Positions 1 through 20,719 of a stretch of 64,000 bases of DNA are shown piece after piece (the stretch's first letter is position 1; every line of letters starts with the position of its first letter). Under the pieces are notes generated by a model. The model was not told the origin of the DNA, made no database searches, and saw nothing but the letters and a program-made list of their open reading frames with translations. The stretch covers positions 141,131-205,130 of the forward strand of contig CACOYM010000002.1 of the NCBI GenBank assembly GCA_902631395.1, read 5' to 3'. Both the position numbers and the translations under genes were made by a program. This DNA comes from Halieaceae bacterium. Lineage in GTDB: Bacteria > Pseudomonadota > Gammaproteobacteria > Pseudomonadales > Halieaceae.

Positions 1-435
1 CTTACGGCCCACGCAAAGGAAAATCCAGACCCTGGCCATCTGACCGCTTTGGTGCGACCCAAGCTAGGACGTCTGATCTGTCAGCCCTTGGTTGACGACA
101 CAGGGACGCTGACGGTGGTGACCTTGGCACCGGACCTCGAAAAACTCCTTGAGAGCAGCCGGGCAGGCGCTGAAACTGAGCACATCACACTTGATCCGAC
201 ATTGGCTAACTCAATGATCGAGAGCCTTCGGAGTGAAGCAGAGAAAATACAAGAGAATGGCGTTGCAGCCACTTTGGTAGTGTCGCCCACTCTCCGGAGT
301 TGGATGGCACGCTTTGTCAAAGTCCGAGTACCTGATCTGACAGTGCTGTCCTATACAGAGATCCCGGACGATCAGCGCATCCAAGTTCAATCCAGCATCG
401 GTGGCGAGGCAGCCATAGAGAGCGATACGGAGTAA
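1..435 (+). CDS. flhA: Flagellar export gate protein FlhA, C-terminal part (5' end outside window)
   Basis: FlhA is the nonameric export-gate protein of the flagellar type III secretion system. Its cytoplasmic C-terminal domain docks chaperone-substrate complexes. Only about the last 144 residues are visible. The frame is open from base 1, so the TTG at 49 in the ORF track is not the start. The segment with VRPKLGRLI, then a CQPL..D..G.L.VVTL..DLE strand region and a closing VLSYTEIP, fits the end of the FlhA cytoplasmic domain. The stop lies 6 bases before the next flagellar gene, so the two are probably co-transcribed. Assignment is by recognition of the domain and by its place ahead of flhF-fleN-fliA. 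Confidence 0.9.
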   Translation, partial: LTAHAKENPDPGHLTALVRPKLGRLICQPLVDDTGTLTVVTLAPDLEKLLESSRAGAETEHITLDPTLANSMIESLRSEAEKIQENGVAATLVVSPTLRSWMARFVKVRVPDLTVLSYTEIPDDQRIQVQSSIGGEAAIESDTE

Positions 436-441
436 TACAGT

Positions 442-1209
442 ATGAGACTTGTCGTAGAGGAAGCTCAGGATCACAGCGCCTGCATGGAAAAGCTAAGAAG
501 CTTGTATGGGGCGGACTGTGTTGTTGTGCATAGCTTTCGGATAGACGATCGATACCGGGTGGTGATTGCATTGGAGACAGATATTCGAACGCCCGCCAGT
601 TGTCAGGGGAGCGCTGTAAAAAATGTTGTGTCTCACCCCTATATTCGCTGGGATACGCTAATCGATGGTGCGGAGTCGGTAAATACACCGTTGCCAACTA
701 GTGTTGTCTCAGCAGCACATATGGAGACTAAGGCGTTGCAGCACGGCCCAAATGAGATCAGTTCCAGGCTGATCGAACTCGCGGCCAGGATCAAGGCGCT
801 TGACGCGTTGGAACCACTGTCGGCTCTCGAGCCGGAGTCGCAAGACTTCAGACAGGCAGTGTTCTCGGAAGTCCTCGCCGAGGCCACAGCTGCCAGCGAC
901 AAACCGCATAATATCCAGCAACACGGCACCGACCAGGTAGCGCCCTCAATCCCAGAAATTTTTTCGACACTAACAGATGCGCCGGCTGCCAAATTTCCCG
1001 CACCGGTCGATGCGCTCCTCAAGACACGTGAATCCCTCATCGCCGACACTTTGAACACCAGCACCCCTCTCGAGGAGACTCCCATTCCCAGAGTCTGCAC
1101 GTCTGACAGCGCGGAAAACTTCGCCAATCTGCTCTTAAGTTGTGTTGCCGATTCCCAGAAAAGCTTGCCCCTTTATGAGCAGACTCGGCTTAGAATGGTA
1201 GCTAGCTAA
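442..1209 (+). CDS. FlhF-like protein lacking the SRP-type GTPase domain
   Basis: This gene occupies the flhF position between flhA and fleN. The first 50 residues resemble the FlhF N-terminal domain: a helix ending in EKLRSLYGADCVVVHSFR, then a basic beta-hairpin and VVIALE. Normal FlhF proteins exceed 400 residues and continue into an SRP54-type N and G domain with a P-loop and DT(A)G-type motifs. This protein is only 255 residues. Residues 60-255 are low-complexity, rich in Ala, Ser, Thr and Pro, and show no Walker A or other GTPase motif. The stop is followed 59 bases later by fleN, so the G domain has not simply shifted frame nearby. It may be a reduced FlhF, a domain-loss derivative, or a decaying gene; the frame is intact. 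The FlhF relationship is an inference from a short match and from synteny. Confidence 0.65.
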   Translation: MRLVVEEAQDHSACMEKLRSLYGADCVVVHSFRIDDRYRVVIALETDIRTPASCQGSAVKNVVSHPYIRWDTLIDGAESVNTPLPTSVVSAAHMETKALQHGPNEISSRLIELAARIKALDALEPLSALEPESQDFRQAVFSEVLAEATAASDKPHNIQQHGTDQVAPSIPEIFSTLTDAPAAKFPAPVDALLKTRESLIADTLNTSTPLEETPIPRVCTSDSAENFANLLLSCVADSQKSLPLYEQTRLRMVAS

Positions 1210-1268
1210 GACATCTTACTGGCTGGCCGCAACATTTAGCGGCACTCACTGAGACATGAGGCATCACT

Positions 1269-2060
1269 ATGCGTGTAATTGGTGTGACAAGCGGAAAGGG
1301 TGGCGTCGGTAAAACCACAGTTTCGGTTAATCTTGCTGTTGAGCTTGCCAAGCGAGGCAAAAAAGTCGTTTTACTTGATGGTGACCTAGGGTTAAGTAAT
1401 GCCCAGATACTGCTCAACGCCCGAGTCGAATACAGCTATGGGCATGTGCTCTCTGGGCAAAAGACCCTTGAAGAGATCATGGTGCAGTCAGAGCACGGCG
1501 TCACGTTGGTTCCGGGTTCAAGCGGCTCTTCTGCTCTGGCACGCCTCACGCGCCTACAGTTATTAGGTCTCATACACACACTCTCGACGCTAGATGACTG
1601 TGACTATCTGGTTGTTGATACGGCGGCAGGCATTAGCGATAACGTGACGGTGCTATTCGGTGCCTGCGATATTAAATTGCTACTGATTCAAAATGAGCCG
1701 TCCTCGATTGCTGATGCGTACGCCACAGTTAAGGTCTTGCAGCAGGAATTCAATCTCTCCGACATCATGCTAACGCCGGTTCAAGTAACAAATGAGCGCG
1801 AATCGGAAAATATTCACAAACGTATCAACAAAGTTACCGCGCAATTCCTGGGGATCTCCCTTGGATACTCGACCGGAATCCGAAAAGACCCGGTCGTGCT
1901 CAACTCTGCTAGGCTAGGACAACCAGCGATTCTTCACGCCCCAGAGAGCGATATCGCAAAAGACATTCGACGTCTCGTCGACGTCATCACCGAATCGACG
2001 GGCGAGCCCACCACCGCCAGCGATATCAAAATATCGGTGGGCGCTGGCGCAAAGAACTGA
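1269..2060 (+). CDS. fleN: Flagellar number regulator FleN/FlhG, MinD-family ATPase
   Basis: FleN (FlhG) is a MinD/ParA-type ATPase that limits flagellar number, in pseudomonads by antagonising FleQ. The deviant Walker A motif GKGGVGKTT is at residues 9-17, the switch I-like DGDLGLSN near 37-44 and the Walker B strand [12 protein letters not shown] near 113-124. The length of 263 residues is slightly short for the family. The ATG at 1269 starts directly at the first beta strand. An in-frame TGA at 1257-1259 rules out an N-terminal extension, so the DQAxxLR helix that some FlhG proteins use to stimulate FlhF GTPase cannot be present. That matches the absence of the GTPase domain in the gene upstream. 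The fliA start follows 3 bases after this stop. Confidence 0.93.
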
Positions 2061-2063
2061 TCT

Positions 2064-2783
2064 ATGTCCAAAGGCTACCAAGCATATGCTGACGCACTGA
2101 CGAACTCTGAGCCCAGTGCTGAGAATTCTGCGGTGCTGCAGCATATCGGCCTCGTACATAAAACAGCTCTTCATATCAAGGCCCGACTGCCAGACTACGT
2201 TGAACTCGAAGAGTTGGTGCAAATCGGGATGGTCGGGTTGCTCGAGGCTGCAAAGTCCTACGATTCAACACAAGGTGCCGACCTGGGCACATTCGCCAGC
2301 AAGCGCATACGAGGCGCTATTTTGGATGAGGTGCGCAAGAGATCTCCCCTGTCGAGGACCGACAGTTCGCACATCAAGGCAGAAGAGCAGGTGGTGGAGC
2401 AATTTCTTGCAAAACATGGCAGACCACCGACGGCGAGCGAGATAGCACAAGAACTCGGCACGCCACTTGATGAGTACCAAAAGCAACGAGGCAGATCGCA
2501 GAAATTTCGCACGACGTCTCTGGAAGATCTGGAGGAAAGTGGTCAAATCCCCGTCTCCGAGAGCGATGGTCCTGAGGACGAATTAGACGCTATCGAAGCC
2601 AGCGAGTGGCTTGCTGCGGAAATCGCAGAATTACCTGAGCGTGAACAAATCGTGATTTCTTTATACTATAACGATGAAATGAATTTGAAAGAGATAGGAG
2701 CGATCATTGGCGTCAGCGAATCCCGAGTCAGCCAAATTCTCACCAAAGTGGTGGGGAAACTTCGCGACCGGGTCGCGTTTTAA
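2064..2783 (+). CDS. fliA: Flagellar sigma factor FliA (sigma-28)
   Basis: FliA directs RNA polymerase to late flagellar and chemotaxis promoters and is normally held by FlgM until the hook is complete. The 239-residue protein has sigma region 2 near residues 30-100 (LEELVQIGMVGLLEAAKSYD, then FASKRIRGAILDEVRK). Region 3 follows near 110-140. A region 4 helix-turn-helix lies near 205-230 (NLKEIGAIIGVSESRVSQI). The length is normal. The start ATG comes 3 bases after fleN, so translation is probably coupled. In many gammaproteobacteria cheY-cheZ-cheA follow here; instead two unknown genes follow, so chemotaxis genes must be elsewhere if present. Confidence 0.95.
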   Translation: MSKGYQAYADALTNSEPSAENSAVLQHIGLVHKTALHIKARLPDYVELEELVQIGMVGLLEAAKSYDSTQGADLGTFASKRIRGAILDEVRKRSPLSRTDSSHIKAEEQVVEQFLAKHGRPPTASEIAQELGTPLDEYQKQRGRSQKFRTTSLEDLEESGQIPVSESDGPEDELDAIEASEWLAAEIAELPEREQIVISLYYNDEMNLKEIGAIIGVSESRVSQILTKVVGKLRDRVAF

Positions 2784-2798
2784 GGCATAGAGCACGGC

Positions 2799-3284
2799 AT
2801 GTTTGGAAAAAAATCAAAACTAGAGCGCGTAAAAGCAGACGCAAAAGCAGACTACTTAAAGTGTAGTGCCTTGGACCCTGAGGATCGCCTTCACAGGGTT
2901 TTCGCAGCGCGAATCGCCCAACGAGCGAGACTGAATCTCGACAAGATTTTTGTGCAGGGCGCCAAAGCAGAAGAAAAACGCCAGCACGAGATGGCAGAGG
3001 CAATTAAAGCCGGTAGTGGCATTCCACCGAGAATCGTGCATGAGGGCTACAACCAGCTACAAGGGATATCAGGGTCCGTTGTGTCCTGGGTCCCGGAGGA
3101 ACTTGCCAACAAGATGTTTAACTTGGGTGCTGACTATCAAATTACTGAAGTCAGTGCCCATGAAGCGTTGCAGCAGGCTGAAAAGGTTGCTGAGACTATT
3201 ATTGAGGACCTGCAAACCACGCAATCTATACAATTACTCGGTTTGTTGCGCGAGGACGATGGAGACGATGAGTCCGAGGATTAG
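2799..3284 (+). CDS. Unknown cytoplasmic protein downstream of fliA
   Basis: I do not recognise this 161-residue protein. It starts 15 bases after fliA and is probably in the same transcript. The first third is very basic and helical (MFGKKSKLERVKADAKADY) and the middle is charged and probably helical. The C-terminus is very acidic (EDDGDDESED). No signal peptide or membrane segment is visible. The position would suit CheY or CheZ in related genomes, but I see neither a CheY Asp-pocket pattern nor the CheZ C-terminal CheY-binding peptide. A role in flagellar regulation or chemotaxis is possible from position alone. The frame, spacing and codon use look like a real gene. Confidence 0.8.
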   Translation: MFGKKSKLERVKADAKADYLKCSALDPEDRLHRVFAARIAQRARLNLDKIFVQGAKAEEKRQHEMAEAIKAGSGIPPRIVHEGYNQLQGISGSVVSWVPEELANKMFNLGADYQITEVSAHEALQQAEKVAETIIEDLQTTQSIQLLGLLREDDGDDESED

Positions 3285-3323: not shown

Positions 3324-3959
3324 ATGTCACTAGAAAATATTGTCATCGCGGTATCGCTGCTCTTGGGCATTGTGTTACTCATCCTGATCATTTATCTGAT
3401 CAGTAGAGTTAACGACCTTGAGGCAAAGGCTTTTTCCTTTCAAAGCGCTACGTCGTCGGAAAAAAAAACCGAAACAGATTCGCAGAAGGTCTTTGGGGGG
3501 CTAAATGGACGCCAATTATGGGACGAATGGGTGGCGATGGCCAACGGCGGGGAAGATCGATTTGGCATCAGGGGGGACCGGGATCGCTTCCTCGCTCTAC
3601 TTGAGTTACACATTCGCTCACTTATTAAGACCGGCATCGAACACGGCTCCAACGGGATAAACGAGCCACCCTCTAACCCGTTGAAAATCAAAATGCTGCG
3701 CGGTGAGTTCGAAAGCTATCTTCCATCGTCTCAGGCTGGTCGCCTCTACGAAATCGGGTGTGATTTAGGCTTCAGCGACGATCCACAGCAGCAAGCAGCG
3801 CTGGTCGCGGCGCTCACCGAGACCGTTGACGCCATTTCAATGGGTATTGACGCAGGTTCAACTTTCGTTGAAAACGCGATGCGCGACGTCAGCACTGAGC
3901 CTCAAGACCGAGAGCTCGGGCAGGAACTCGTGCCGGCTGACCAATCCAGCGTTGATTGA
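3324..3959 (+). CDS. Unknown single-pass membrane protein at end of the flhA-fliA operon
   Basis: This 211-residue protein is not recognised. Residues 6-28 form one hydrophobic helix (VIAVSLLLGIVLLILIIYLI). It is followed by a short coiled segment, a polar Ser/Lys/Glu linker and a soluble domain of roughly 140 residues with RDRFLALLELHIRSLI and LYEIGCDLGF. The layout suggests an N-anchored protein with a cytoplasmic or periplasmic domain; orientation cannot be fixed by eye. It starts 39 bases after the previous gene. Its stop is 1 base from the stop of the convergent minus-strand gene, so the two operons end face to face with no room for a separate terminator. Confidence 0.8.
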   Translation: MSLENIVIAVSLLLGIVLLILIIYLISRVNDLEAKAFSFQSATSSEKKTETDSQKVFGGLNGRQLWDEWVAMANGGEDRFGIRGDRDRFLALLELHIRSLIKTGIEHGSNGINEPPSNPLKIKMLRGEFESYLPSSQAGRLYEIGCDLGFSDDPQQQAALVAALTETVDAISMGIDAGSTFVENAMRDVSTEPQDRELGQELVPADQSSVD

Positions 3960-3960
3960 A

Positions 3961-4779
3961 TTATTGTTGCTGGTCTGGAGCAGGAAACACGACACTTCCC
4001 TCGGGATAAATCTTTTCAGGCACCAAGACATCGTCCTCCGTAGGGCCATTGCTGAGCTGAGCTCGCTCAAGGGCCAATTGCGCAGCAAAGAGCTCTGCCA
4101 GATTTTCGCGCTCAATCTCAATAAGAGTTGAAATCTCCCGCTTGAGGGCTTCAACATCGTTAAGGCCAGACTCTAACTTTGTGACTTTCCGCGACAACTC
4201 GGCGAACTGCTCCGACTGCTTTTGCAACTGCGCGACCATCGCTCTGTTAGACTCGACACCACTCCGGGTAATTTCGCTGGTGTCTGTGACAATGGATTGA
4301 ACACCAGTAATCGACATAGCCATCTGCTCGGCCAGCGTCTTGCCATCCCGCTCTACTTGGCCAATGGCCTCCGCGAGCTGAGCCTGACCTTCATCGAGCA
4401 TGCTCAGCTTTTGATCTAGCACAACCATGCGGTCAAGCGCAGAATTCATGTTCACGACGCGCTTTGTGATCGACAGAGTCGCAGCCTGCAATGCGTCCAC
4501 CTGCCCAGACAACCTGCCGCCCGCTACCATGAGCAGGACTGCACACAAAAAAACTACGACGGCGGCGCCACCGGCCAAACGCTTGGCATAGAATTCCATC
4601 TTGCGATTGGCCTGGCTTGCCGAGTCCAATGCCCGGTCAAGTCGGCTATGAGTATCAGCGTTCAACTGCGCGACGGCGTCAACAGCAGGACTTGACGGCA
4701 CTGAGCCACCATTATTGGTGCTCTTTTGGGCCGGCAAAGCCAAGTCGCCCTCTAAGCCTGGATTTTCGTCATCAACCAT
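3961..4779 (-). CDS. Unknown membrane-anchored coiled-coil protein at end of the fli operon
   Basis: This 272-residue protein is not recognised. About 65 polar residues are followed by a transmembrane helix near residues 68-90 (AAVVVFLCAVLLMVAGG). Then comes a long helical region with heptad-like repeats (LDRMVVLDQKLSMLDEGQAQL, SRKVTKLESGLNDVEALKRE) to about residue 240, and a Pro-rich tail. The layout resembles coiled-coil envelope proteins or the signalling-helix part of chemoreceptors, but there is no MCP hairpin motif and no HAMP pattern that I can see. A good ribosome site (GGGAG, 9 bases before the ATG) supports the start. It is the last gene of the minus-strand flagellar run, 49 bases after the previous one. 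Confidence 0.8.
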   Translation of the reverse strand: MVDDENPGLEGDLALPAQKSTNNGGSVPSSPAVDAVAQLNADTHSRLDRALDSASQANRKMEFYAKRLAGGAAVVVFLCAVLLMVAGGRLSGQVDALQAATLSITKRVVNMNSALDRMVVLDQKLSMLDEGQAQLAEAIGQVERDGKTLAEQMAMSITGVQSIVTDTSEITRSGVESNRAMVAQLQKQSEQFAELSRKVTKLESGLNDVEALKREISTLIEIERENLAELFAAQLALERAQLSNGPTEDDVLVPEKIYPEGSVVFPAPDQQQ

Positions 4780-4828: not shown

Positions 4829-5794
4829 TTAGTGCGGGAGACGCTGAAACAGCGGCTCAAGGCTGTCCATAATCTCTTCTATCCAAGGCTTTACCAGCGA
4901 CTGTGTTAGTTCCCAAACCGGTGGGTGCAGGGCACCCGCAACCGCCAAAATCACTGCACTGGCAGACAAAATAATGATGCCCACCGCAATCAGAGACCCA
5001 ATTCTTGGGAGCAGGGCTCTCCAATTAATCCATCGCGATGGCGCTTTTTGGTCAGTCGCCTCAGCAAAAGCCCCACCTAATTGTTCAGCGGCCTGACCAC
5101 CCGCATAGTCAGTGTGTGGAGAGATAGACTTAGATTCATCGTAATCAGAAACACTTTGTTTAAGCGCGTCGCTAACGTCCAGGCCCAGTATCTCCATGGC
5201 AAGTCCGTACCAGGGCGACTGCTGAAGAGACGGTAGCAAATCGGCCAGCGCTCCTCTCTGATGACACTCTGAAAAGTACCGCTTTATGGCAGGATGATCC
5301 ATCTCAGTGAGGCGTATCAGATTATTACGCGACTTAAGCGAGAGTTGCTGTAAGGCTGCCGCATCGTGATTGCTCTCCGTTGAAAATGCTAGCATCCCTA
5401 CATTGGCACCCGGGAACGTGTTGACCAAAGACTCGCACGCCAACCACTCCTTGCCAGCGTTAGGACCAAAATCGGGCATCACAATGATATGGCGCTCTTG
5501 AGCCTGCTGGTTGCGTGCTTCTTCAATTGAGAGATCAGCCAATACAGTGTTGAATAGCTCGACGATGTCATCCACTTTTGGAGACATCATGCGATGCAAA
5601 TGAAGCCCAGGCTGCAGCTTTAGTTGTTGGTATAAAGCGAGAAAACAGGCATCAACATGGAACTCTTCCTCACCCACTATGAACACATTCGACATGCCCT
5701 CCAGCAATGCTTCGCGCGCTGCCTCAAGAATTCTCTCATCGTCTGGGTGAGGGAGTGACCGGAGCAGCACGTCATCTGTGAGTTCAATTTTCAT
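4829..5794 (-). CDS. Unknown protein downstream of flhB with one C-terminal membrane helix
   Basis: This protein of about 321 residues is not recognised with confidence. The first 200 residues look like a degenerate ExeA/MshM/DamX-type ATPase fold: a strand-like VFIVGEEEFHVDA where a P-loop would be, then HIIVMPDFGPN in a Walker B-like position. No GxxGxGKT motif is present, so ATP binding is doubtful. A transmembrane helix follows near residues 255-285 (LIAVGIIILSASAVILAVAGAL), then an amphipathic tail. ExeA/DamX proteins often have peptidoglycan-binding or SPOR domains, and neither is seen here. I chose the ATG giving MKIELTDD over the upstream GTG in the track. It lies 36 bases after flhB and is probably in the flagellar transcript. 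Confidence 0.75.
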   Translation of the reverse strand: MKIELTDDVLLRSLPHPDDERILEAAREALLEGMSNVFIVGEEEFHVDACFLALYQQLKLQPGLHLHRMMSPKVDDIVELFNTVLADLSIEEARNQQAQERHIIVMPDFGPNAGKEWLACESLVNTFPGANVGMLAFSTESNHDAAALQQLSLKSRNNLIRLTEMDHPAIKRYFSECHQRGALADLLPSLQQSPWYGLAMEILGLDVSDALKQSVSDYDESKSISPHTDYAGGQAAEQLGGAFAEATDQKAPSRWINWRALLPRIGSLIAVGIIILSASAVILAVAGALHPPVWELTQSLVKPWIEEIMDSLEPLFQRLPH

Positions 5795-5830
5795 CGGCCG
5801 ATACACCGTCGCTGCAAGGCCATATCATTC

Positions 5831-15098: not shown

Positions 15099-15877
15099 GA
15101 CTCTGATAATTGGTCCGGAAATTGCGCAACAAGCTGTTCTCTTAACTGTGCGAATTCGCGTTCCAACAAGCGATCTATGGCTACCTGTTCGTATTGAATG
15201 GTGATGTCTCCGTCAGATAAATCGGGACTGATCACCATCGAAACTGGCTGATCCGCCAACAATGCCTCAAGCTCATCGAGAGACGCCAACTCTGCCATGG
15301 CTGGCGATACCCTAATCTCCACAGGTACATCTTCCGGAAGCTCCACCTCACGAAGCGCCTTGTTGATATATTGACGAAAAACATTCTCATTGAGCCGCAG
15401 CGACTGAAGGCAAACAGTTTTCGCAATATCCAGAGACAGGTCAGTGACAACTGGCCAAACGCGAGGCAAGGCCGCCATTTCGCTCCGGATAGACTCAAGA
15501 AATTTCTCGGCCAAAGCCTCCCGCTGCTGACTATCGAGGTTCGATTGGCGGATGCCTTCAGCAACCCCCTCTTGGTATCTTGAATCCAAAAGCTGATCAA
15601 CATCGATGACCTCTTCAACTTCGGCGTCATCCTCACGCGCCTCTGCCTCAAGCTCAATCTCCCTATTCGCAGACTCCTCAGCTTCTGTGAGAACTTCTTC
15701 TGGGTCAGGGTTGCTATGAGCCGCCTGCCAATGCATCTCCTCAAAGCCCCCGGAGCGCTTTACATACTCACCGCCAACCGAGGCTTCGCTAAAAGCTTTC
15801 GCACGACGATCAGCAGCCAGGAGTTCATTTAACTCCCACACCACCGTTTTATCGGCCTCAGACAAAATCATCTCCAC
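15095..15877 (-). CDS. fliH: Flagellar assembly protein FliH
   Basis: FliH is the peripheral-stalk-like regulator that dimerises, binds FliI and tethers it to FliN in the C-ring. The 260 residues have a polar, acidic N-terminal half. The FliH/V-ATPase E-subunit-like C-terminal domain (VVTDLSLDIAKTVCLQSLRLNENV and later LLEREFAQLREQLVAQF) fills the rest. The start lies inside the end of fliG (20-base overlap); a second ATG two codons later is also possible. Conservation is low but context is decisive. Confidence 0.92.
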   Translation of the reverse strand: MEMILSEADKTVVWELNELLAADRRAKAFSEASVGGEYVKRSGGFEEMHWQAAHSNPDPEEVLTEAEESANREIELEAEAREDDAEVEEVIDVDQLLDSRYQEGVAEGIRQSNLDSQQREALAEKFLESIRSEMAALPRVWPVVTDLSLDIAKTVCLQSLRLNENVFRQYINKALREVELPEDVPVEIRVSPAMAELASLDELEALLADQPVSMVISPDLSDGDITIQYEQVAIDRLLEREFAQLREQLVAQFPDQLSES

Positions 15878-16928
15878 GGCCGGCTAGCACCAGTTCACCT
15901 GCATCAGACAGTTTTCGTGCAATACGCATGATGTTCTTCTGAGCATCCTCGACGTCCGATATGCGCATCGGACCCTTCGACTCCATATCATCGATGAACA
16001 TCGCTTTTGCACGCTGCGACATGTTGTCAAAGAACTTGTCACGCGTTTCCTCACTGGCTCCCTTCAGAGCCACCATCAGCAGATCCGATTCGATATTTCT
16101 CATCATCACCTGAATTGCACGGTTATCAACCATGGAGAGGTTCTCAAAGGTAAACATGTTGTCTTGTATCTGGAGCGTCAGGTCCTCGTCCAGTGAAGTG
16201 AGTGACTGCATTACGGAAGTTTCGAGATCAACCTTCACAAAGTTCATAATCTTTGCTGCAGTTTTCACGCCACCAAAACTCGATGATTGGGCTGAAGAGT
16301 TACTTGAAAATTGCTCCGACATAATTCGCTCAAGCTCTTCCATCGCCGATGGCTGGACCGTTTCAAGCTTTGCAACCCGCTGCATTACTTCGGCGCGATT
16401 ATCAGGAGGCAAAAAGCTCAGCACATCTGCAGCCACATCATACTCAAGGACCGAAAGGATGATCGCAATCACCTGAGGGTGCTCATTGATAATCATGTCC
16501 GAGATTGCGCGTGCATCCATCCAGCGAAGAATCTCTAGGCCCTTGGTGGACCCACCTGGAAGTATGCGGCTGAGTACCGTACTGGCCTTATCGTCACCGA
16601 GAGCTCGCTTCAACACAGATTCAACGTAATCGGTAGTGCCCAGACCAAGATTGGTTTGCTGCTTGATCGTCCCCACAAAGTCGTCTAATACAGCGCTCAC
16701 GGTTTCCTGAGACAAATCCACCACACCCACCATGGCTGACCCCAGCGCCTGCACCTCACGGGGGTTCATATACCGGATAATATCCGAGGCCTGCGTCTCA
16801 CCCATAAGAAGCATGATGACCGCGGCGCGCTCGGTGGTCGTCATCGTCTCCAGCTCTTCACGCACGAAGTCAGGAAGATCTTGATCGCCGTCACTCGAAG
16901 TTATATTTTTTGCTGCCTCCGCCATCAC
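15858..16928 (-). CDS. fliG: Flagellar motor switch protein FliG
   Basis: FliG is the upper C-ring protein that contacts the stator and generates torque. Residues 30-120 hold the N-terminal domain that binds FliF (ERAAVIMLLMGETQASDIIRY). The middle domain holds the EHPQVIAIILS motif near 155-165. The C-terminal torque domain has DLETSVMQSLTSLDEDLTLQIQ and MRISDVEDAQKNIMRIARKL, with the expected charged residues. Length of 356 residues is slightly above the usual 330-340 because of an N-terminal extension. Confidence 0.96.
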   Translation of the reverse strand: MMAEAAKNITSSDGDQDLPDFVREELETMTTTERAAVIMLLMGETQASDIIRYMNPREVQALGSAMVGVVDLSQETVSAVLDDFVGTIKQQTNLGLGTTDYVESVLKRALGDDKASTVLSRILPGGSTKGLEILRWMDARAISDMIINEHPQVIAIILSVLEYDVAADVLSFLPPDNRAEVMQRVAKLETVQPSAMEELERIMSEQFSSNSSAQSSSFGGVKTAAKIMNFVKVDLETSVMQSLTSLDEDLTLQIQDNMFTFENLSMVDNRAIQVMMRNIESDLLMVALKGASEETRDKFFDNMSQRAKAMFIDDMESKGPMRISDVEDAQKNIMRIARKLSDAGELVLAGRGDDFV

Positions 16929-18896: not shown

Positions 18897-19226
18897 TTAA
18901 ACAGGCATACTCATAACGTCTTGATACGCTTTCAACACCTTGTTGCGGACCTGCAACGTTGCCTCAAAAGCGACGGACGCTCGTTGTGAATCAATCAACA
19001 CATCGGTAACACTGACGTCTCCCGATGCTTCGAAATTGGTCTTAGTCTCGGCAGATTGCATTTGAGTCGCATTCACCGAGCGAATCGCCGCCAACAAATC
19101 TGAGGCAAACCGCGATTGCTGTTGTTCATTACTAATCCCCAGTGAAACATCAGCGGCACGACTATTTGCGAGCTCTGCCTGTCTAATGACGTTCATCACA
19201 CCTTGCATATTGGTCTTATCAATCAT
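18897..19226 (-). CDS. fliE: Flagellar hook-basal body protein FliE
   Basis: FliE joins the MS-ring to the proximal rod. The 109-residue protein has the typical C-terminal block: VTDVLIDSQRASVAFEATLQVRNKVLKAYQDVMSMPV. Its start overlaps the stop of the upstream sigma-54 activator gene by 4 bases (ATGA). fliE is therefore not the first gene of its transcript here; it is coupled to the regulator. Confidence 0.95.
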   Translation of the reverse strand: MIDKTNMQGVMNVIRQAELANSRAADVSLGISNEQQQSRFASDLLAAIRSVNATQMQSAETKTNFEASGDVSVTDVLIDSQRASVAFEATLQVRNKVLKAYQDVMSMPV

Positions 19227-20686
19227 GGTGCACCTATCGATTGCATGCCGTCGGGCTCAGCCGTTTTAAGCTTCTGTAACTTGTGCCTTAGCGTCCTGGG
19301 GCTAATCCCCAGCCGCTCTGCCGCTTCTTTCTTCGAGTCCGTCTCCTGAAGCGCCGCTTGTATCAACTGCCACTCGGCTTGCTCTTTAGCGGAGACAAGG
19401 TCCTGATCAGATTGGATTACGGTATGCTGAATGTCGGGGATATCCTTTTCTGGGCTAAGAACTGCTGGCGATTGAGGGGGCAGAGAGGATGGAGAAAACT
19501 CCAGCGCATCAAAATAAATATGGTCCGCTTGAATAACATTGTGAACAGCCAAGACTTTCGCACGGCAAATGACGTTGTCCAACTCCCTCACATTGCCTGG
19601 CCAAGGATGCGCAAGCAGTTGTTCGATGGCTGGTTCTTCAATTTGCATACTGATACCGGCAATTTGCTCAGATGCGGCAAATGTAATCGCCAGCTGTCGA
19701 ATGTCCTCGGGTCTCTCGCACAGCGGCGGAATGGCAATATGAAAGGCGTTCAAGCGATAAAGAAGATCTTCTCTAAATTCACCCCGCTTGACTAAATTCA
19801 CAAGATCGCGGTTCGTCGCTGCAACCAAGCGCACATCGAAATCTATTTCGCGAGTACTGCCGATCCTCGCAGCTTTCCGCTCCTGAATAACACGCAATAA
19901 CTTGGGTTGGATGTGCAGCGGCAGTTCACCAACCTCATCCAGAAAAAGCGTGCCTTGATGTGCCTCTTCGAAGATTCCAGGTTGATCTTTTACGGCACCG
20001 GTGAACGAACCCTTAATGTGGCCGAATAAGATGCTCTCGACTAAGTGTTCTGGCATTGCTGAGCAGTTAAGCGCAATAAACGGGCCAGCTGCTCTGGACG
20101 ATGCGTTATGTAAGATTTGGGCTACCACCTCCTTACCAACACCCGAGGGTCCCGAGAGCAACGCTGTCACATCAACTTGAGCGACACGCTGCACGAGGGC
20201 GAGCATCGCTTTGCTGACTGGGTCACCGAAGACCACCTGTTTTCGCTGACCGCGAGAAGGGATAGAAGGTCTCGGGCGAGACGCGGACTGCTCAGTAGAT
20301 TGCGATATCAGTTGATGCAGTGTGCTAACCATCAAAGTAATCAGGTCTTCCCAATCCGATTGCTCAGTGTAGGTCTCGAAGACGGCTAAGCCGTGAGCGC
20401 CCACAAAGTGAGCCAGTTTCAAATCACCTTCTGGAATTAACACGCCCGTAGTTTCTCGCGCTTGTTGCAGTACCTGCGTAAGGTAAGTGTCTTCCGACTC
20501 CCACGCCGGACCAACAGCAATGCAAGACGTTGCACCTGACGCGGCACGCTCAGCAAAGGTGTCGTTGGCTTGAGTAATAGAAACGAGGTATTCCACAGCG
20601 TCAGCTCTCAGGCGTTCCTCGGGGAAGCCGGTCCCTCGCACTGCCAAAACGTTGAGGCGCTGATCTGTCGAAATGTTTGCGGTCAC
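19223..20686 (-). CDS. Sigma-54-dependent flagellar activator (FleR/FlrC-like) with degenerate receiver
   Basis: This is an enhancer-binding activator of sigma-54 RNA polymerase. The AAA+ domain has Walker A GPSGVGKE, the sigma-54 contact loop GSFTGA (usual GAFTGA), Walker B GTLFLDEVGE and the arginine-finger segment FREDLLYRLN. A Fis-type helix-turn-helix ends the protein (KKEAAERLGISPRTLRHKL). The first 140 or so residues look like a receiver-type fold, but I see no clear phospho-acceptor Asp pattern, and no FleS/FlrB kinase gene is adjacent. The track start (ATG at 20707) would lie one base from the start point of the sigma-54 promoter predicted at 20720-20734. I prefer the GTG at 20686, which has GGGGA 9 bases upstream (488 residues). 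Its 3' end overlaps fliE. It is probably the FleR/FlrC equivalent controlling the fli operon and other class III genes. Confidence 0.88.
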   Translation of the reverse strand: MTANISTDQRLNVLAVRGTGFPEERLRADAVEYLVSITQANDTFAERAASGATSCIAVGPAWESEDTYLTQVLQQARETTGVLIPEGDLKLAHFVGAHGLAVFETYTEQSDWEDLITLMVSTLHQLISQSTEQSASRPRPSIPSRGQRKQVVFGDPVSKAMLALVQRVAQVDVTALLSGPSGVGKEVVAQILHNASSRAAGPFIALNCSAMPEHLVESILFGHIKGSFTGAVKDQPGIFEEAHQGTLFLDEVGELPLHIQPKLLRVIQERKAARIGSTREIDFDVRLVAATNRDLVNLVKRGEFREDLLYRLNAFHIAIPPLCERPEDIRQLAITFAASEQIAGISMQIEEPAIEQLLAHPWPGNVRELDNVICRAKVLAVHNVIQADHIYFDALEFSPSSLPPQSPAVLSPEKDIPDIQHTVIQSDQDLVSAKEQAEWQLIQAALQETDSKKEAAERLGISPRTLRHKLQKLKTAEPDGMQSIGAP

Positions 20687-20719
20687 TGCTTTGCATCCCC
20701 ATTGCATGCACTTGTAGCA

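Follow-up and report, generated by a model that had tools for sequence, protein, structure and literature searches.

The window analysed here is a stretch of 64,000 nucleotides (positions 141131-205130 of contig C2) from a Luminiphilus genome (Halieaceae; 2.30 Mb, 89% complete). It begins with the 3' end of flhA (1..435, plus strand), a 708-codon FlhA frame that crosses the window edge and has its start upstream on contig C2. This is followed on the same strand by a short flhF (442..1209), fleN (1269..2060) and the sigma-28 gene fliA (2064..2783; NF005413, 226.6 bits, above its cut-off), thus giving the order flhA-flhF-fleN-fliA expected for an flhF gene. Next on the plus strand are genes for two uncharacterised proteins with homologues only in this flagellar lineage, one of 161 aa with no Pfam match (2799..3284) and one of 211 aa whose N-terminal stretch is hydrophobic and TM-like (3324..3959). 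Further on, the opposite strand carries flhB, fliR, fliQ, fliP, fliO, fliN, fliM, fliL, fliK, fliJ, fliI, fliH, fliG, fliF and fliE, several of these names having been given by eye from sequence and order. Two uncharacterised proteins beside flhB (3961-4779 and 4829-5806, minus strand) have no Pfam match above cut-off and are conserved within the clade and weakly in relatives. The product of fliG (15858..16928, minus strand) has all of its N, M and C domains (Pfam FliG_N/M/C), and a sigma-54 activator resembling FlrA/FleQ is encoded at 19223..20707 on the minus strand (Pfam Sigma54_activat). The flagellar genes neighbouring the short flhF are intact, and the contig upstream of the window holds further ones (hook, rod, flagellin and stator; read by eye), among them about 5.5 kb with five flagellin-like genes, also named by eye (L080:12145-17659 of G000:C2).

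FlhF normally uses a GTP switch that decides where flagella are built. A sequence-only reading of the locus had proposed that the gene in the flhF slot encodes only the N-terminal, FlhF-like part of the protein, and a variety of approaches lead to the same view. As a single sequence, residues 1-48 of the 255-aa product (ATG start) match the FlhF family TIGR03499 with an E-value of 5.8e-4 and 18.3 bits, far short of the curated cut-off of 174.15 bits, and such a marginal match leaves room for the suggestion that the protein is unrelated to FlhF and merely occupies its slot. That suggestion is extremely improbable given that hhalign aligned nine of the short proteins with the N-termini of ten canonical FlhFs at an E-value of 4.8e-10 (probability 96.6%), that the structural model matches a known FlhF domain, that the same slot is used in all the species and that intermediate FlhFs form a gradation among the relatives. 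AlphaFold2 predicted residues 1-45 with high confidence (pLDDT about 92, with 10-residue blocks at 90-94 as far as residue 40) in the order strand-helix-strand-strand, which agrees with the composition of the FlhF 1-44 crystal of Dornes et al., three antiparallel strands and one helix (PMC11236974). In a Foldseek search eight chains of 9EN1, the FliG-interaction domain (FID) of Shewanella putrefaciens FlhF, ranked first, with target-normalised TM scores of 0.79-0.83 for the top three; the E-values were weak (best 8e-3), as is expected for a 45-residue domain within a mostly disordered query. An FID-only profile found 9EN1 in the PDB by sequence (E 2.5e-17), a result that is not independent evidence since the profile contains canonical as well as short rows, and a PDB sequence search with a whole-protein profile of the short FlhF gave no match. 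The FID of the window (residues 1-47, 442..582, plus strand; beta-alpha-beta-beta) shares no more than 21-27% identity with the canonical and relative FIDs of the alignment, a divergence that weighs against the FliG-adaptor explanation favoured below. It is confirmed that 442-1209 encodes the N-terminal FID of FlhF and no NG/GTPase domain. Ten separate genomes of the genus share this short gene and its position, and only around 60 bp lie between the flhF stop and fleN, which rules out chance occurrence, assembly error or a frameshift in flhF.

The absence of the GTPase is complete. The 255-aa protein has neither a P-loop, as had been noted from the letters alone, nor any Pfam domain, and a search of the locus with PF00448 found no match, so that the SRP-type NG domain with its P-loop and G motifs is lacking. 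A second, full-length flhF elsewhere in the genome, or a lack of FlhF homology in the 255-residue protein, had been named as observations that would overturn the proposed loss of the GTPase, and neither was borne out; over the source genome only FtsY and Ffh score above the PF00448 cut-off, both matching their family normally, and none of the ten short-FlhF genomes contains a third SRP GTPase. The closed genome G445, very probably Aequoribacter fuscus IMCC3088, likewise has exactly two (Ffh and FtsY), and two relatives with intact FlhF (G456 and G487) have three each, with FlhF at 104-131 bits. It was therefore shown that the NG domain was deleted without relic and that these genomes hold no replacement SRP GTPase. 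No published GTPase-less FlhF was found in the literature.

The remainder of the protein had been described as a low-complexity tail, a description that did not hold up. Its composition is ordinary (entropy 3.96 bits, compared with 3.95 for FleN) and, while it is mostly predicted to be disordered, helical islands are kept where the linkers drift. One of these, at residues 104-150 (751..891, plus strand; ..LIELAARIKALE..LEPE..FRxxVFSxVL..), contains model helices at 108-123 and 134-152 of moderate confidence, and a second, at residues 215-255 (1084..1206, plus strand; IPRVxTSxxAExFxxLLxxC...), contains a model helix at 222-240 with pLDDT 74-78. A short F..[VIL]L-like motif recurs in G445, G449 and G447. 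Pooled Nei-Gojobori estimates of dN/dS among close species, of which those from two close trios are the safer because the eight-species pool is near synonymous saturation, were 0.04-0.11 for the FID, 0.06-0.16 for motif 104-150, 0.26-0.49 for the linkers and 0.20-0.48 for the C-terminus, and 0.04-0.06 for FliA and about 0.02 for FleN, the most constrained protein of the set. The short flhF is consequently not a decaying gene; its FID and mid motif are under purifying selection, and the earlier expectation of selection on both the FlhF N-terminal part and FleN was correct. One might still ask whether the short flhF is a relic on its way to being lost in organisms where flagellar placement has stopped mattering, as might be suggested by its evolving faster (whole-gene dN/dS about 0.25) than FleN or FliA and by the many Luminiphilus genomes with no FlhF match at all (see below). 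Such a reading is largely refuted by the codon analysis and appears quite improbable; the frame is open in ten species, the FID and mid motif are strongly constrained, the adjacent flagellar genes are intact, and the ancestry shared with A. fuscus implies long retention.

FleN, a MinD-type ATPase with an intact GKGGVGKT, is encoded by a stop-to-stop frame of only 266 codons, a TGA lying at 1257-1259 on the plus strand in frame with its ATG, and both this stop and the limits of the two open reading frames are as originally reported. There is no N-terminal DQAxxLR enhancer helix, and this absence had been linked to the reduction of FlhF. It is uninformative, as Halieaceae with a full, P-loop-bearing FlhF have a FleN likewise devoid of DQAxxLR and the same is true of Pseudomonas FleN (PMC12713375), so loss of the helix has been rejected as a correlated change. 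Reduction of the system is better indicated by the other end of the protein (1998..2057, plus strand), where an FFVERL-type C-terminal segment is gone in 10 of 10 clade members and the model is disordered from residue 244 onward; G445 keeps the segment, as do nearly all the other relatives apart from G022 and G032. We infer from its position and character that FFVERL is the membrane-targeting sequence, which FlhG carries at this position (PMC12826062). Thus the notion of a reduced placement and number system is still an interpretation, with the helix removed from its support and the loss of the membrane-targeting-like tail in the same clade providing independent support.

The distribution of the short gene is patchy. 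Within Luminiphilus, 10 of 57 genomes have a FleN of the window type, each accompanied by a short FlhF of 216-290 aa, 18 have a full-length FlhF that belongs to another lineage, and 29 have a match to neither form. Across the family an FID was detectable in 62 of 140 genomes, 12 of them in frames of <300 codons, namely the ten Luminiphilus together with G445 (256 aa) and G449 (184 aa), both of which have a FlhF without the GTPase; G446 is near-identical to G445 at FleN, but a contig end removes the start of its flhF. An FID was found in 191 of 369 genomes of a class-wide sample, and the form seen in the window was the sole demonstrated GTPase-less FlhF among the matches listed. Four other short FID frames were rejected as GTPase-less, those of G308 and G426 belonging to frame-broken genes whose G domain lies downstream and those of G419 and G382 being contig ends with a P-loop, and that of G290 is truncated where its contig stops. 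FlhF frames of 716-818 codons with an intact P-loop occur in G480, G521 and G501 (L212, L213 and L214), the G480 protein having a long additional region C-terminal to its GTPase domain.

In a maximum likelihood tree of FlhA, FleN and FliA the window belongs to a flagellar lineage (bootstrap 100) that takes in Comamonadaceae assemblies, G050 from elsewhere in the order, genus g294, G447/G449 and G445/G446, and that is distinct from the lineage of other Halieaceae and of the remaining Luminiphilus. This separation suggests horizontal movement of the flagellar cluster. The flagellar genes of the Comamonadaceae assemblies (L063-L065) and of G050 (L132) group with the window, apart from those of most other Halieaceae. 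Within the lineage FlhF shows a stepwise degradation: the P-loop and G4 are both present in G050 and the Comamonadaceae, G450/G451 and G447 keep the P-loop with G2 and G4 altered, G449 is without the GTPase domain that its sister G447 keeps, and in the clade of G445 and Luminiphilus (bootstrap 100) the domain is wholly gone. By parsimony this would represent two independent deletions. The other Luminiphilus lineage (L138-L155) provides a further case, as eight of its 18 full-length FlhFs, two of them from closed genomes, have GSGK replaced by GADR, GTDR or GSCR and altered G3 and G4 motifs at retained full length. With the P-loop lysine lost and G3/G4 altered these proteins should not bind GTP, and their P-loops are predicted to be dead; this change has been counted as one further loss, since those of G006, G030 and G035, which the tree includes, group together. 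On balance we favour the view that Halieaceae repeatedly discarded the FlhF GTP switch, through two NG deletions and one P-loop destruction, and kept the FID, with GTP-free flagellar assembly or placement and, in one clade, a FleN that is not membrane-associated.

The partners through which FlhF acts have been studied in other bacteria. In Shewanella the FID binds FliG and the NG domain binds HubP (PMC11236974), and in Pseudomonas aeruginosa a FlhF-BN form without the G domain gave flagella in about 65% of cells, mislocalised, with the protein diffuse (PMC12713375). For the short FlhF, FliG binding and the flagellation phenotype are predictions. The explanation that we consider probable is a short FlhF that serves as an adaptor for FliG independently of GTP, accompanied by a FleN reduced to cytosolic control of assembly and transcription. 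In this scheme the short FlhF would bind FliG, its predicted partner in the window, through the FID and, with no GTP switch involved, would promote the early steps of MS-ring/C-ring assembly. Since it is ordinarily the NG domain that holds FlhF to HubP, placement may be relaxed, or passed to the new tail helices or to a membrane partner. With no GTPase to stimulate and its membrane-targeting-like tail gone, FleN would work chiefly as a cytosolic link between the delivery of FliM and the sigma-54 flagellar regulator, its predicted partner.

Whether placement has been relaxed or handed over is where the evidence on polarity factors becomes relevant. The C-terminal domains of HubP/FimV are retained, so HubP loss was rejected and placement could still be polar, though FimV has other roles. 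DUF2802, the domain of FipA, was found in none of the Halieaceae genomes tested, even where FlhF is intact, and FipA loss was rejected as a correlated change. The protein at 3324-3959 has a layout and gene position like those described for FipA (PMC11620751) and is conserved across the lineage, but no homology was detected; it has no DUF2802 match, the genome has no PF10975, and its identification as FipA is unsupported. A possible, if tentative, alternative to a simple adaptor is that the FID docks FliG and that the helices at 104-150 and 215-255, or the TM-like 3324-3959 protein, replace the NG-HubP tether, keeping the flagellum polar without GTP. Conservation of the mid and C-terminal motifs and not of the linkers, the sharing of the F..[VIL]L-like motif with G449 and G447, the FipA-like layout and position of the 3324 gene and the retention of HubP all fit such a re-anchoring. 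Against it, the 3324-3959 protein has no known anchor domain and its gene is present also beside FlhFs that keep the G domain; it thus predates the GTPase loss and did not arise as a replacement. It has also to be considered whether the nucleotide switch has been transferred, so that FleN, or FtsY/Ffh in trans, acts on the FID-FliG complex. The intact deviant Walker A of FleN and its rank as the most constrained protein of the set would suit this idea, which is nonetheless unlikely; the tail of FleN has been lost, FtsY and Ffh show nothing out of the ordinary in their family matches, and we know of no contact between an FID and an ATPase.

FlhF is generally regarded as a GTP switch, with assembly, polarity and number as candidate roles of its GTPase. 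A stripped FlhF that is conserved across species and not decaying indicates that the GTP switch appears dispensable in Luminiphilus and its relatives, and one family offers a natural series that begins with the full GTPase, continues with degenerate and P-loop-dead forms (the latter including G030, inferred to be the cultured 'Ca. Paraluminiphilus aquimaris' JH123) and ends with the FID alone (as in G445, whose presumed strain is also cultured); this series separates assembly from switching.

Compared with known systems, the short FlhF resembles the SRP-type GTPase FlhF (TIGR03499) in its N-terminal FID fold, its slot between flhA and fleN and its presumed contact with FliG, but it is without the N and G domains and the P-loop and is predicted to be incapable of binding GTP, of forming the NG homodimer or of binding HubP via NG. 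The P. aeruginosa FlhF-BN form (PMC12713375), which still supports flagellar assembly, and the S. putrefaciens FlhF-B/FID constructs (PMC11236974), in which the FID still binds FliG, also lack the GTPase domain. However, these are laboratory truncations, whereas the short FlhF is natural and conserved, is also devoid of the N domain and has new conserved helices. The FleN of the window is like other FleN/FlhG ATPases of the MinD type in its GKGGVGKT, gene order and FliA neighbour, shares the lack of DQAxxLR with Pseudomonas FleN and is unusual in having no FFVERL-type segment. The P-loop-less FlhFs of other Luminiphilus come from the same genus and are likewise predicted to be unable to bind GTP, but they keep a degenerate, full-length G domain and belong to a different lineage of flagellar genes.
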